Origin: Prescottella defluvii
GTDB lineage: Bacteria; Actinomycetota; Actinomycetes; Mycobacteriales; Mycobacteriaceae
Assembly: GCF_000738775.1 (NCBI RefSeq)
Contig: NZ_JPOC01000036.1
Location: 1-64,000 of the forward strand
Direction: 5' to 3'
Length of the DNA: 64,000 nucleotides
Within the stretch, counting starts at the first letter, position 1. Each line of letters opens with the position of its first letter. The position numbers and the translations under genes were made by a program. Below the pieces are notes generated by a model. It was not told where the DNA came from. It made no database searches and was given only the letters and a program-made list of their open reading frames with translations. Shown here piece by piece: positions 4,993-54,227 of this stretch.

Positions 4993-5006
4993 GCCGACCG
5001 CGGAGC

Positions 5007-6482
5007 CTAGCTGCCGATCTGGGCGCGGGCCGAGCGCAGACGAGCGAGCGTCGCGTCGCGACCGAGCAACTCCATCGACTCGTACAACGGCGGGCTGATG
5101 TGCGAGCCCGTGACCGCGACACGCACCGGCGCGAACGCCTTACGCGGCTTCAGTTCCATCTTCTCGATCAACGCGGCCTTGAGGGCCTCTTCGATATCCG
5201 CGGTGACCCATTCCGACAGCGAATCCAGTGCCTCGATCGTCGCGTCCAGTACGGGACCGGAATCGGCGCCAAGATTCTTCGCGGCGGCGGCCGGGTCGAT
5301 CCGGAAGTCGGCATCCGACACCAGTAGGAATTTCAACAGGTCCCACGCGTCCGACAGCACGACGATCCGGGTCTGCACGAGATCGGCCGCCACATCGAAC
5401 TGTTCGTCCGTCAGCGCGTCGACAGGATGCCCGTGCGTCGTCAGGTACGCGCGCAGACGGGCCGAGAAGTCGGCCGGCTCGAGCAGGCGGATGTGCTCGG
5501 CGTTGATCGCGTCGGCCTTCTTCTGGTCGAAACGCGCGGGATTCGAGTTCACCTTGGAGATATCGAACGCGGCGACCATCTCGTCGAGCGAGAAGACGTC
5601 GTGGTCGTCGGCGATGCTCCACCCCAGCAGGGCCAGGTAGTTGAGCAGCCCCTCCGGGATGAACCCCCGATCCCGGTGGATGAACAGGTTCGACTCCGGA
5701 TCACGCTTGGACAGCTTCTTGTTGCCCTGACCCATCACGAACGGCAGGTGCCCGAACTCGGGTGTGAAATCGGCGACACCGACGCGCTGCAGCGCCTCGT
5801 AGAGGGCCAGCTGACGCGGCGTCGACGACAGCAGGTCCTCGCCGCGCAGGACGTGGGTGATCTTCATCAGCGCGTCGTCGACCGGGTTCACGAGCGTGTA
5901 CAGCGGGATGCCGTTGCCCCGCGTGAGCGCGAAATCGGGCACCGTGCCGGCCTTGAAGGTGGTCTCACCGCGCACCAGGTCGTTCCACGTCAGATCGTGG
6001 TCGGGCATGCGCAGGCGGACGACGGGCTTGCGGCCCTCGTCCAGGTACGCCTGCACCTGCTCGGCCGTCAGGTCGCGGTCGAAGTTGTCGTAGCCCAGTT
6101 TGGGATCGCGTCCGGCCGCCTTGTGCCGCGCCTCGACCTCCTCGGGCGTGGAGAACGACTCGTAGGCCTCCCCCGCGTCGAGCAGTTTCCGCACGACCTC
6201 GAGGTGCAGGTCACGCCGCTGCGACTGCCGGTACGGCTCGTGCGGGCCTCCGACCTCGGGCCCCTCGTCCCACGACAGGCCGAGCCAGCGCAGCGCGTCG
6301 AGGATCGCCTGGTACGACTCCTCCGTGTCGCGGGCTGCATCGGTGTCCTCGATGCGGAACACGAACGTGCCACCGTGGTGCCGCGCGAAGGCCCAGTTGA
6401 ACAGGGCGGTTCGAACGAGCCCGACGTGCGGGGTGCCGGTGGGCGACGGACAGAAACGGACGCGTACTTCACTGGTGGTCAT
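5007..6482 (-). CDS. gltX: Glutamyl-tRNA synthetase
   Basis: This class I aminoacyl-tRNA synthetase attaches glutamate to tRNA-Glu and, in organisms using GatCAB, also to tRNA-Gln. The HIGH-type signature appears as HVGL (residues 19-22) and the KMSKS loop as KLSKR (256-260); VFRIEDTD is the conserved strand after the first. The 491-residue length is normal for the bacterial discontinuous enzyme. Its position next to two tRNA-Glu genes and a tRNA-Gln gene puts the enzyme beside its substrates. GatB, GatA and GatC are encoded at 22-32 kb. Whether it is truly non-discriminating is inferred. Confidence 0.97.
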
Positions 6483-18049: not shown

Positions 18050-18115
18050 GCCGCTCCACTTTTCGCTGTGCCGCGTCTCCGATCGGAGGCGCGGCACAGC
18101 CATTTCCGGAGCGGC
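18050..18115. repeat. 66-bp nested palindromic element, left copy at nuclease-like gene 1 (also ilvD terminator)
   Basis: Outer arms GCCGCTCC and GGAGCGGC enclose inner arms GTGCCGC and GCGGCAC around TCCGATCGGAG. The right copy at 19111-19176 has the same length, the same arms at the same offsets and different spacers. In the inner stem, flanking bases differ between copies in a compensatory way (GCT/AGC here, GTC/GAC there; G/C here, T/A there), so the structure is conserved rather than the sequence. It can also end ilvD transcription. Confidence 0.85.
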
Positions 18116-18116
18116 G

Positions 18117-18150
18117 GACCTGTGGATAACGAGAAATCCATCCACAGATC
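18117..18150. promoter_or_regulatory. Inverted TGTGGAT/ATCCACA pair upstream of nuclease-like gene 1
   Basis: GACCTGTGGAT (18117-18127) and ATCCACAGATC (18140-18150) form an 11-bp inverted repeat with one mismatch. The left arm continues as TGTGGATAA, the complement of the DnaA-box consensus TTATCCACA. The same arrangement precedes the paralogue at 41263. It could be an operator for the gene's own winged-helix domain or a promoter element. Confidence 0.7.
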
Positions 18151-18196
18151 ACGAACCGGGCGCCCTCGGCCCGCTTCCGAGCGGCAGGCTCGGGCC

Positions 18197-19102
18197 ATGG
18201 AATTCGAGGGCACACCACTGGTGTTCAGAGCCGACGCGCTCGACCGTGGCTTCACCGATCACGAACTGCGGGCCGCCCGGCGGTCACGTGAGTTGCTCGC
18301 AGTCAGGCCGGGGGCGTACGTCCGCGCGACCGACCTCGCCGAGCTGGATTCCGTCGCGCAGCACCGCCTGGCAGTCCTCGCCACCGCGTCCGCGTGCCCG
18401 GACGCCGTCGTCAGCCACGTGTCAGCGGCCGTACTGCACGGGATCGAGGTCTGGAACGTGCCGCTGAGGCGGGTCCACTCCACCCTCGACCGCGCCTCCG
18501 GCGGCAAGATCACCACGCGCCGTCACGTGCACGTCGCGCGACTGTCCGACGACGTCGGCGTCGTGGACGGGGTGGGCGTCACGACACCCGCCCGCACGGT
18601 CGTCGACCTCGCGCGCACGGCTGCGTTCGAGAGCGCCGTGGTGTCGGGGGACCACGCGTTGGCAACCGGACTGGTGACCCGCGCGAGCCTCGACGACGCA
18701 CTCGCCCGCTGTCGGGGACGGCGCGGAGCAGCGCAGGCGGCGCGAGCCGTGGCGTTCATGGACGGGCGGAGCGAGAGCGTAGGAGAGTCACGTAGCCGCG
18801 TCCTGATCCATCGGCTGCGGCTTCCGACCCCGGACCTCCAGCGTGTGATCATCGACGAGCAGGGATCGATCGGGCGGGTCGACTTCCTCTTCGAGAACGA
18901 ACGCGCGGTCGGCGAGTTCGACGGTCTCGGCAAGTACACCGAGCACCTGCGTCCCGGGCAGACCACCGCGCAGGCCGTAATCGAGGAGAAGCTCCGCGAG
19001 GACCGCATCCGAGGTGCCGGCTACGGCGTCGCCCGGTGGGGCTGGCGGGAGCTGAGCTCACCCGAGGAGGTGGTTCGACGACTGCGACGCGCGTTCGGCT
19101 GA
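18197..19102 (+). CDS. AbiEi-like winged-helix / DUF559-like nuclease-fold protein, paralogue 1
   Basis: A 301-residue protein of a family common and multicopy in actinobacteria. The N-terminus (about 1-90) resembles the AbiEi-antitoxin winged helix (GFTDHELRAARRS, AVRPGAYVR, VSHVSAAVLHGIEVW). The C-terminus (about 195-300) has the order E...GRVDFLF...VGEFDG...EKLREDRIR that recalls Vsr/DUF559 PD-(D/E)XK nucleases (Asp in RVDF, E-x-D in GEFDG). It shares SESVGESRSR, GRVDFLF and REDRIR blocks with the protein at 41263. No AbiEii toxin gene is next to it. The gene lies between two 66-bp palindromic elements, in an interval where mycobacteria have none. Function is unknown; nuclease activity is inferred from the fold pattern only. 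Confidence 0.8.
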   Translation: MEFEGTPLVFRADALDRGFTDHELRAARRSRELLAVRPGAYVRATDLAELDSVAQHRLAVLATASACPDAVVSHVSAAVLHGIEVWNVPLRRVHSTLDRASGGKITTRRHVHVARLSDDVGVVDGVGVTTPARTVVDLARTAAFESAVVSGDHALATGLVTRASLDDALARCRGRRGAAQAARAVAFMDGRSESVGESRSRVLIHRLRLPTPDLQRVIIDEQGSIGRVDFLFENERAVGEFDGLGKYTEHLRPGQTTAQAVIEEKLREDRIRGAGYGVARWGWRELSSPEEVVRRLRRAFG

Positions 19103-19110
19103 ACCCCGCT

Positions 19111-19176
19111 GCCGCTCCAGAAATGGTCGTGCCGCTCCCCCGATGGGAGGAGCGGCACGACGAGAACCGGAGCGGC
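19111..19176. repeat. 66-bp nested palindromic element, right copy at nuclease-like gene 1
   Basis: The same outer (GCCGCTCC/GGAGCGGC) and inner (GTGCCGC/GCGGCAC) arms as 18050-18115, same total length, different spacers. It begins 8 bases after the nuclease-like stop and ends 7 bases before the doxX stop, so it can also serve as terminator for both convergent genes. Confidence 0.85.
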
Positions 19177-41051: not shown

Positions 41052-41136
41052 GCGCAAGGTCTATCGAGCCCGTCCGGCGACCAGGCGTCGGCGATGTGTC
41101 GCGTCGATGCAGCTTCGGTGAACGCGCCGCGCGCAC

Positions 41137-41188
41137 ATTGACGCCCCGCGCGCCCGATCGCGCGCGCGGGAGGCGAGGTTGCGCGCGG
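41137..41188. repeat. 52-bp repeat, left copy at nuclease-like gene 2
   Basis: The unit begins ATTGACGCCCCGCGCGC and ends GTTGCGCGCGG. It matches 42233-42284 in 51 of 52 positions and in the same orientation. Inside it CCCGCGCGC and GCGCGCGGG form a 9-bp stem. In the right copy the unit starts inside the gene's stop codon context, so the left copy may derive from the 3' end of a lost tandem gene copy. Confidence 0.92.
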
Positions 41189-41189
41189 G

Positions 41190-41224
41190 AGGTTGTGGAC
41201 AACTTTCTCGGGCATCCACAACCT
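41190..41224. promoter_or_regulatory. Inverted TTGTGGA/TCCACAA pair upstream of nuclease-like gene 2
   Basis: AGGTTGTGGA (41190-41199) and TCCACAACCT (41215-41224) form a perfect 10-bp inverted repeat 39 bases before the ATG. TGTGGACAA is the complement of TTGTCCACA, the DnaA box of high-GC actinomycetes. The same layout precedes nuclease-like gene 1. Confidence 0.75.
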
Positions 41225-41262: not shown

Positions 41263-42237
41263 ATGAGACCTGTGACCCGCGAACCGACCCACCGCCCGCT
41301 GCTCCGCCGCAGTGCCCTCGCGCAGGGCTTCACCGACGGCGAACTCCGAACACTGTGCCGCAGTGGCGGATGGGACCGGCTGCGCCCGGGCAGCTACCTG
41401 TCGCCCGAAGCGCAGCAGGAACTCGACGACGTGGGCCGCCACCGCGCGCTGCTCGACGCGACCCTCCCGGGCCTGAGCTGCGACGCGGTCGTGAGCCACC
41501 AGACCGCGGCGGTACTGCACGGGTTGCCGCTGTGGCAGATTCCGCTCGACCGGATCCACGTCACCCGGGATCGGTCCGGCGGCGGGCGTCGGACCCGGCA
41601 CCTCCACTCCCACAGTGCGCCACTGACCCCCGGCGATGTCGTCGAGCTGGGCGGGACTCGCGTGACGACCGTCGCCCGCACCGTCGCGGACCTGTGCCGG
41701 ACGGTACCGTTCGAGCGGGGCGTGGTCGTCGGCGACTGCGCACTGGCGAGGCCCGATCTGACCCGCGATGCGATCGCGGACGCACTCCACTACGCGGCGG
41801 GCCGACCCGGTCACCCGGCAGCGCTGCGTGCCCTCGCCTTCCTCGACGGCCGCAGCGAGAGCGTCGGTGAGTCACGCAGTCGCGTCGCACTCTCGGCGCT
41901 CGACGTTCCGGTCCCGGACCTGCAGGCGTCGCTGCTCGACGCCGACGGACTCCTGCTCGGACGCGTCGACTTCCTCTTCGCCGAGGCAGGGGTGGTCGGC
42001 GAGTTCGACGGAAAGGTCAAGTACGGCAAGTACCTTCGCGACGGCCAGGACCCGGGCGATGCCGTGTTCGCGGAGAAGCAGCGCGAGGACCGGATCCGGG
42101 ATGCGGGCTGGGAGGTGACGCGGTGGACTTGGCGTGACCTCGACACCCCGCAGGTGATCGGTGCACGGATTCGGCGGGCGATGCAGCGGCATACCGGTCG
42201 CCGCCGGCCACTGGGCGCGGTGCTGCGCGCGGATTGA
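41263..42237 (+). CDS. AbiEi-like winged-helix / DUF559-like nuclease-fold protein, paralogue 2
   Basis: A 324-residue paralogue of the protein at 18197. The N-terminal AbiEi-like part (RSALAQGFTDGELRTLCRSG, RLRPGSYLSP, VSHQTAAVLHGLPLW) and the C-terminal nuclease-like part (SESVGESRSR, LLGRVDFLF, VVGEFDGKVKYGKYL, EKQREDRIRDAGWEV) align along the full length. Here GEFDGK retains a lysine at the expected third position of an E-x-K-like motif, whereas paralogue 1 has GEFDGL. The start is the ATG at 41263, or the GTG at 41272. No partner toxin gene is adjacent. The gene separates the acyltransferase pair from etfBA, neighbours in M. tuberculosis. Function is unknown. Confidence 0.8.
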   Translation: MRPVTREPTHRPLLRRSALAQGFTDGELRTLCRSGGWDRLRPGSYLSPEAQQELDDVGRHRALLDATLPGLSCDAVVSHQTAAVLHGLPLWQIPLDRIHVTRDRSGGGRRTRHLHSHSAPLTPGDVVELGGTRVTTVARTVADLCRTVPFERGVVVGDCALARPDLTRDAIADALHYAAGRPGHPAALRALAFLDGRSESVGESRSRVALSALDVPVPDLQASLLDADGLLLGRVDFLFAEAGVVGEFDGKVKYGKYLRDGQDPGDAVFAEKQREDRIRDAGWEVTRWTWRDLDTPQVIGARIRRAMQRHTGRRRPLGAVLRAD

Positions 42238-42284
42238 CGCCCCGCGCGCCCGATCGCGCGCGCGGGAGGCGAAGTTGCGCGCGG
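42233..42284. repeat. 52-bp repeat, right copy at nuclease-like gene 2
   Basis: A direct repeat of 41137-41188 with a single G-to-A difference (GAAGTT for GAGGTT). It begins in the last codons of the nuclease-like gene and includes its TGA stop. The internal stem CCCGCGCGC/GCGCGCGGG could act as terminator. Confidence 0.92.
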
Positions 42285-42308
42285 CGCGACCGGATCCGCG
42301 CAATGTAG

Positions 42309-54097: not shown

Positions 54098-54160
54098 GTA
54101 GCGAATCCTACCCAATGGTAAGGAATGAACAAGTTCTAGTTTTGGGCCGTTCCGGGCCTC

Positions 54161-54217
54161 GATTCGCGCACTTGTCGCGGTCCCCAGGGCCGGGAATCCG
54201 CGACAAGTGCGCAAATC
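54161..54217 (-). terminator. Long hairpin after echA
   Basis: A perfect 15-bp stem (GCGCACTTGTCGCGG and CCGCGACAAGTGCGC) extends to about 19 bp with one mismatch (GATT/AATC) and has a 17-nt loop. It ends the echA unit. Confidence 0.85.
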
Positions 54218-54227
54218 GCAGGACGAA

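Follow-up and report, generated by a model that had tools for sequence, protein, structure and literature searches.

Genes of a common actinobacterial family for nuclease-like proteins often lie between two copies of a gene-specific palindrome. This arrangement suggests a small self-bracketing genetic unit, made up of the gene and its pair, with a protein that recognises the palindrome of its own gene. The window, by which we mean the whole analysed stretch of 64,000 nucleotides, carries two such genes with different palindromes. On balance we regard it as probable that a gene and its two flanking palindromes are one unit, whose protein would recognise the four-motif palindrome beside its gene and act on it with the nuclease domain.

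Two palindrome-flanked genes in the window

The first gene (18197–19102, plus strand, 301 aa), with IlvD and DoxX as neighbours, lies between the nested palindromes E1 (18050–18115, minus strand) and E2 (19111–19176, plus strand). Both 66-bp frames, predicted previously, agree with the predicted arms without mismatch, and the three compensatory changes proposed for the inner stem are genuine, both sides of the stem being altered between E1 and E2. Each element contains four motif copies of about 8 nt, two forward followed by two reverse (→ → ← ←). The outer copies of E1 are GCCGCTCC and its inner copies are variants, whereas E2 has four exact GCCGCTCC copies beginning at 19111, 19131, 19149 and 19169, the last two on the minus strand. 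With up to 3 mismatches, the frame has no matches in the 64-kb window besides E1 and E2, and it has 0 matches in 100 dinucleotide shuffles of the window. Calculated with RNA parameters for the plus strand, the nested hairpins of E1 and E2 (8-bp outer stem, roughly 16-bp inner stem) have energies of −51.9 and −51.8 kcal/mol (z = −8.8 and −9.1), and 0 of 200 shuffles fold as well. The shuffles, the fold z-scores and the survey of control genes given below rule out chance or a plain repeat as the source of the two elements. The inner pattern TGCCGC..GCGGCA alone was rejected as a search key, giving 41–72 matches per genome and strand versus 49–138 for the reversed control.

E1 and E2 are in opposite orientation: the reverse complement of E1 aligns with E2, including a conserved asymmetric internal loop, and this orientation is found in all genus genomes with the pair (6 of 14). 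In 15 E elements, 91% of the cells are paired and 22 cells have both partners changed, a number reached by 0 of 500 shuffles, with no G-U cell. RNA stems ordinarily tolerate G-U pairs, so the lack of them favours a constraint on the symmetry of E-type stems as DNA.

This bears on a rival explanation, which takes the elements for strong intergenic terminators of an ordinary kind; the gene would have been inserted by homologous recombination between two copies, or the copies duplicated with it, and the protein would be unrelated to them. E1 begins 8 nt past the ilvD stop codon (18041), as a terminator could; the covariation without G-U points instead to DNA symmetry, and neither strand shows a run of T after E1 or E2 (checked by eye).

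The second member of the family (41272–42237, plus strand) encodes a protein about 50% identical to that of 18197–19102; its start codon is uncertain (GTG 41272, ATG 41263 or GTG 41251), and its neighbours are a GNAT/FeeM-like protein and EtfA. Its palindromes, here called the 41k type, differ from the E pair and show little covariation in their stems. The left one (41127–41190, plus strand) is of the TGCGCGC type, and the right one (42223–42286, plus strand) covers the last 15 nt of the gene. The left element sits between divergent genes, a position that also speaks against the terminator explanation. In each unit, a DnaA-box-like pair follows the left palindrome and precedes the start codon: at 18121–18146 in the first (TTATCCACA on the minus strand at 18121–18129, TCCACA on the plus strand at 18141–18146) and at 41194–41220 in the second (TTGTCCACA on the minus strand at 41194–41202, TCCACA on the plus strand at 41215–41220).

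The first gene had been called AbiEi/DUF559-like. For its own protein the AbiEi half of this call holds (PADLOC AbiEi, E = 8.4e-14), whereas DUF559 is matched by 13 of 74 relatives and not by the protein itself. PADLOC AbiEi models match the first two thirds of the protein, and one model matches 70 of the 74 members. No Pfam family passes E ≤ 0.01 for the 18197–19102 protein, AbiEi_1 falling below the cut-off, and NCBIfam gave no match for either window protein; among the 74 relatives, Pfam finds AbiEi_4 in 37, DUF559 in the 13 just mentioned, REase_MTES_1575 in 12 and AbiEi_1 in 9. In the C-terminal nuclease-like domain, D242 never varies, and conservation is at least 90% at E197, D229 and E240; judged from the named families, these four residues probably form a nuclease active site. 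The structure model of the protein has a mean pLDDT of 96.2. Sequence-profile matches in the PDB are the endonuclease-like 3hrl (E = 0.0012), a GGDEF protein (E = 0.06), which we take as a chance match, and the mobile intron protein 3r3p (E = 0.39). The dN/dS ratio is 0.17–0.18 for three pairs of intact E genes and 0.15–0.30 for 21 pairs of 41k genes; the rows of the E gene of genome G002 were dropped because its in-frame stop displaced the codon map. No AbiEii-like toxin gene is present among the immediate neighbours of either window gene. To our knowledge, genes of this kind have been named orphan AbiEi antitoxins or DUF559 proteins and nothing further.

Palindrome pairs and promoter sites at homologous loci

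We scanned the flanks of 98 homolog loci, taken from 61 genomes (51 of them with a homolog) and from named contigs; 60 further stretches were chosen for this among the matches listed, and the loci are only part of all matches. Two loci were left out, L207, which has no downstream flank, and L054, a duplicate of L029; no two of the 98 are at least 90% identical over 400 nt. A left–right element score of at least 20 was obtained at 57 of the 98 loci versus 1 of 171 control ORFs. Palindromes scoring at least 21 of 31 at both flanks were found at 49/98 loci versus 4/171 control ORFs, and those scoring at least 22 of 31 at 33/98 versus 0/171. Pairs are present at 17 of 29 loci in the window's genus, many of them orthologous to one another, and at 40 of 69 outside it, where the proteins of the paired loci are 30–58% identical to that of the window gene. 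At all 40 of these paired loci the gene's own right element is the top match to its left element among the 98 right elements. The remaining 41 of 98 loci have no left–right pair at a score of at least 20; at least one of these is a miss of the flank-scan script, which overlooked the right element of L027, recovered by covariance-model search.

The association extends beyond the order. In a phylum-wide sample of 19 further loci (score at least 18; L379 and L384 are shortened by contig ends), a pair was found in 3 of 3 loci from other orders of the same class, in 2 of 3 from the same family and in 1 of 13 elsewhere in the phylum. Pairs in other orders suggest that the association of gene and palindrome is old. 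Across the phylum, 42 of the 119 genomes sampled, the window's included, have at least one member at E ≤ 1e-20, with a maximum of 14 per genome. Antrihabitans (order Mycobacteriales) belongs to the family of the window's genome. A marked expansion was observed in genomes G098, G133 and G155 (same family, genus g46), with 10–14 members each; a pair is present in 2 of 3 loci looked at. In Arthrobacter sp. 260, the homolog at 5001–5879 of locus L059 has near-identical direct-repeat elements (score 64 over a 72-nt window) and is a candidate for a recent unit.

Thus, the predicted cassette with its own boundary elements is supported by private left and right pairs that recur across the protein family. 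For the terminator explanation the same survey is unfavourable, since pairs private to a gene accompany this protein family in several taxonomic families and also in other orders, with only 1 of 171 control genes paired.

The literature searched, with most subscription journals and bioRxiv outside its scope, yielded no description of DUF559/AbiEi-nuclease genes with flanking palindromes. For a Rhodococcus strain, the accessible part of one report gives five AbiEi-domain proteins and three AbiEii/AbiGii toxins and does not mention palindromes there (PMC12915292).

The elements share an architecture but not a sequence. Within the half-elements of the 57 paired loci, a motif of about 7 nt recurs at an offset of 19 in 43%, 20 in 22% and 21 in 11%, versus 11, 4 and 4% in randomly mixed halves. 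The typical element thus has four copies of a private motif of about 7 nt in the order → → ← ←, with same-strand copies 19–21 bp apart. Its centre lies a median of 118 nt 5′ of the start codon on the left and 39 nt 3′ of the stop codon on the right, and the two elements are in direct orientation at 34 of the 57 loci, inverted at 11 and tied at 12.

The more alike two proteins are, the more alike their elements tend to be (1128 locus pairs, rho = 0.25, 0 of 500 permutations), and the same trend is seen for protein identity below 60% (rho = 0.20, 3 of 500 permutations). By protein region, rho is 0.14 for residues 1–60, 0.26 for 61–125, 0.19 for 126–190 and 0.08 for the nuclease part. This covariation is weak, partly phylogenetic and low for the winged-helix region; going by these sequence comparisons, residues 61–125 might be the place to seek a specificity region. 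At the direct-repeat etfA locus (41k type), left and right elements are homogenised: their identity within a genome is 0.90, versus 0.79 between left elements and 0.83 between right elements of different genomes (15 elements from 8 genomes, 7 of them with both). At the inverted E locus, left–right identity within a genome (0.79) is lower than that between left elements of different genomes (0.92). Not included in alignment A6, having failed the motif filter, are the elements of G006, the right-hand element of G002 and the solo of G010.

DnaA-box-like sites, often in pairs, occupy the stretch that separates the left palindrome from the start codon. The sequence TT[A/G]TCCACA occurs upstream of 49 of 98 family genes (110-nt windows) versus 1 of 271 control ORFs (100-nt windows), and in the 64-kb window it is found only twice, once upstream of each family member. 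The core TCCACA precedes the start at 85 of 98 loci (141 sites, two or more in 52 loci), with the consensus GTT[A/G]TCCACAG. Near the solo, that is, gene-free, elements, TT[A/G/C]TCCACA was found at 0 of 100 loci and the TCCACA core at 20 of 100. Among the 19 phylum-sample loci, one has a box, and it is absent in 2 of 3 same-family loci; the trait is therefore not universal. In M. tuberculosis and S. coelicolor, TTGTCCACA is reported as the high-affinity DnaA box, and a lone box is reported not to be bound by the DnaA of M. tuberculosis (PMC4285127).

These positions could also be read as autoregulation, with an AbiEi-like repressor that controls its own gene by binding at the palindromes and a nuclease domain that acts elsewhere, for example in defence. 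AbiEi antitoxins bind palindromes and repress their own gene, and the match of PADLOC AbiEi models to up to 70 of 74 members, the median distance of the left element from the start and a motif spacing that suits a duplex-binding protein all agree with such a role. We nevertheless hold it to be quite unlikely: it leaves the equal right element and the solo copies unexplained, and 85 of 98 loci already have a separate promoter site, TCCACA.

Gene-free elements and gene loss

The possibility that the E frame is unique to the 18197–19102 gene was ruled out by further sites in the same genome. With up to 3 mismatches the frame has two more copies there (C20:32117 and C40:12559), and the E covariance model at E ≤ 0.001 finds 6 sites, the last one weak (6.5e-4), of which four are gene-free. 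The 14 genus genomes have 0–8 E-type sites each (strands merged), and each of the six genomes with the gene has 3–6 E-type solo copies. Elements of the 41k type occur at E ≤ 0.001 in 12 of the 14, with at least 2–9 solos per genome; they are missing from G003 and G011, which are also the two genomes with neither gene nor remnant at the etfA site. The number of sites per element type and genome is at most about 15 (29 strand-matches in G009). One element type of another genus is also present in two extra copies at a distance from its gene. The comparison originally drawn with REP elements and their dedicated enzyme fits these data, because private pairs recur across the family and gene-free copies exist.

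Solo copies look old, because most of their flanks are common to solos of other genomes. This is the case for 34 of 40 E-type solos (40 of 44 were fetched), in clusters of up to 8 genomes, and for 55 of 60 41k-type solos fetched among the matches listed. No recent jump was seen, nor, by eye, any target-site duplication at solo or empty sites. A search around one solo site, L130, yielded no clean empty site because the adjoining sequence differs between genomes; many matches of about 75 nt may point to a tRNA gene beside L130.

Among the solos that could be classified, 28 of 47 of the 41k type and 14 of 31 of the E type lie at convergent gene ends, versus 7 of 38 gaps of the window, with 13 of 60 and 9 of 40 solos, respectively, unclassified; under a stricter gene-end rule, 18 of 60 41k-type solos lie between two 3′ ends. 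This preference fits a side function, and solo elements may serve as terminators or insulators. It also favours the terminator explanation, as do one solo cluster about 5 nt 3′ of a stop codon, where G004 has another hairpin (by eye), and the ilvD–doxX gap of gene-less relatives, in which other hairpins stand whose inner stem is similar in three cases. The original prediction had named occurrence of the frame at many unrelated intergenic sites as the mark of a common terminator or REP element. The frame does occur at further intergenic sites, often near gene 3′ ends, but a common terminator leaves the gene-private pairs unexplained. We rate the terminator explanation as unlikely.

Six of the 14 genomes of the genus carry the gene between ilvD and doxX; it is intact in G000, G007 and G009, has one in-frame stop in G002 and is broken in G008 and G013. 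Of the eight genomes without it, G001 alone keeps an E element, single and truncated; G004, G006, G010 and G012 carry an unrelated hairpin, and G005, G011 and G003 a hairpin with an E-like inner stem and no outer arms. Given these inner stems, a simple hairpin may be ancestral at this site. At the etfA site the gene is intact in 7 of 14 genomes, partial or broken in two (G001, G013) and absent from five. Of these five, G010 shows exactly one element, a clean one; truncated remnants (by eye) are present in G008 and G012, and there is nothing in G003 and G011. Decay of the gene is frequent, 3 of 6 copies being broken at ilvD–doxX and 2 of 9 at etfA. On the original prediction's other refuting condition, empty sites in relatives with no such element, the outcome is thus mixed: at etfA, 1 of 5 (G010) has a single clean element, and at ilvD–doxX, 7 of 8 lack a whole E element.

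Other hairpins were noted around these sites. The cassette-less ilvD–doxX regions of G012, G004, G010 and G006 (loci L065, L069, L070 and L073) have in common a strong hairpin, its stem resembling GAAGGG..CCCTTC, that might terminate the ilvD–doxX pair; its pattern GAAGGGNCCCTTC is absent from the 64-kb window. A different hairpin at 54160–54218, with GCGCACTTGTCGCG-like arms, has relatives between ilvD and doxX in G001 and G005 and perhaps represents another dispersed palindrome family of the genus.

In G010, one clean element stands in place of the etfA cassette. A two-gene tree groups G010 with G012 and G009 (support 0.998; elsewhere in the tree support falls to 0.37, and we placed the root at G003+G011). 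As G009 has the cassette, the tree makes the G010 element a product of loss rather than a target before insertion. Precise loss between direct repeats can be passive, ordinary recombination being sufficient.

Loss also weighs against a homing-type selfish element, whose nuclease would cut solo palindromes so that repair copies the gene between two elements. Such a mechanism would accord with the existence of solo elements, with the frequency of direct repeats and with the weak similarity of the nuclease-like domain to the mobile intron protein 3r3p. We consider it improbable: no polymorphic gain was seen, the sole pair of solo and cassette (G010) is a loss, intact flanking elements would themselves be targets, and no plasmid or phage homologs were found at E ≤ 1e-5.

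Proposed mechanism and comparison with known systems

Most likely, the gene and its palindromes are a REPtron-like unit whose nuclease-like protein, of the unrelated AbiEi/DUF559 kind, recognises the palindromes that belong to it. The AbiEi-like part would recognise the protein's own four-motif palindrome, and the C-terminal PD-(D/E)XK/Vsr-like nuclease domain would nick or cut there. The unit would pass on vertically as element–gene–element; recombination between the two elements, possibly aided by the nuclease, would delete the gene so that a single element remains. Near gene ends, solo elements would persist, possibly as terminators. The DnaA boxes of the promoter may couple expression to replication initiation. 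Spreading of elements by the protein would likewise be conceivable, and the unit is most likely a domesticated or slowly cycling selfish module. A broader and more tentative idea, which we think somewhat doubtful, is that such self-bracketing nuclease units are widespread in actinobacteria, unrelated to RAYT/REP, that each AbiEi–DUF559 protein serves one four-site palindrome as its dedicated enzyme, and that the units act in step with replication through DnaA-controlled expression; specificity would then diversify freely, so that a genome with up to 14 paralogues may hold several enzyme–palindrome languages.

The first two thirds of the protein resemble the AbiEi antitoxin of the AbiE type IV toxin–antitoxin system (PADLOC AbiEi; Pfam AbiEi_4, AbiEi_1), which differs in that the present proteins have an extra C-terminal nuclease-like domain and neither window gene has an AbiEii-like immediate neighbour. 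That C-terminal domain resembles DUF559, REase_MTES_1575 and Vsr-like nucleases, as the Pfam and 3hrl matches indicate. The DUF559/Vsr-like class includes EDxHD homing endonucleases; unlike these nucleases, the proteins described here were not seen in an intron or intein, are fused to an AbiEi-like part and have paired cognate palindromes. Iteron arrays with DnaA boxes are known from plasmid origins, and the present motif copies, spaced by about two turns of the helix and close to DnaA-box-like sites, are reminiscent of them; here, however, the arrays are chromosomal, flank a nuclease-like gene as inverted pairs on either side, and are box-free as solos (0/100).

The closest parallel is the REPtron or RAYT system (TnpA_REP, HUH Y1; REP/REPIN). 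As described in two reports, it consists of a gene with adjacent cognate palindromes, with co-evolving types, gene-free copies and no sign of gene mobility (PMC8266576, PMC3116915). Common to both systems are cognate palindromes adjoining the gene, gene-free copies and co-inheritance. The protein differs, being AbiEi/DUF559-like here and HUH Y1 in REPtrons: Pfam and PADLOC found no HUH Y1 transposase over the 74 members, mainly AbiEi, DUF559 and MTES_1575. The element also differs, with 60–66 bp and four motif copies as against a REP palindrome of 20–50 nt with a GTAG-type tag; neither the E or 41k consensus nor the E flanks have a shared tetranucleotide tag (by eye). The number of sites per type and genome, given above, contrasts with hundreds for REP, and the DnaA-box-like promoter sites are a further difference. 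The unit thus works like a REPtron in logic but falls outside the REPtron family, because it has no HUH protein, no tag, another form of element and a low copy number.

If the link between protein and palindrome holds, the AbiEi/DUF559 family gains a substrate, a class of actinobacterial intergenic palindromes is accounted for, and DnaA and a chromosomal nuclease are joined by a testable tie. Dozens of natural protein–site pairs would then be available for reading a recognition code, and the unit would represent a second solution to the problem of a palindrome with its dedicated enzyme, known from RAYT/REP.
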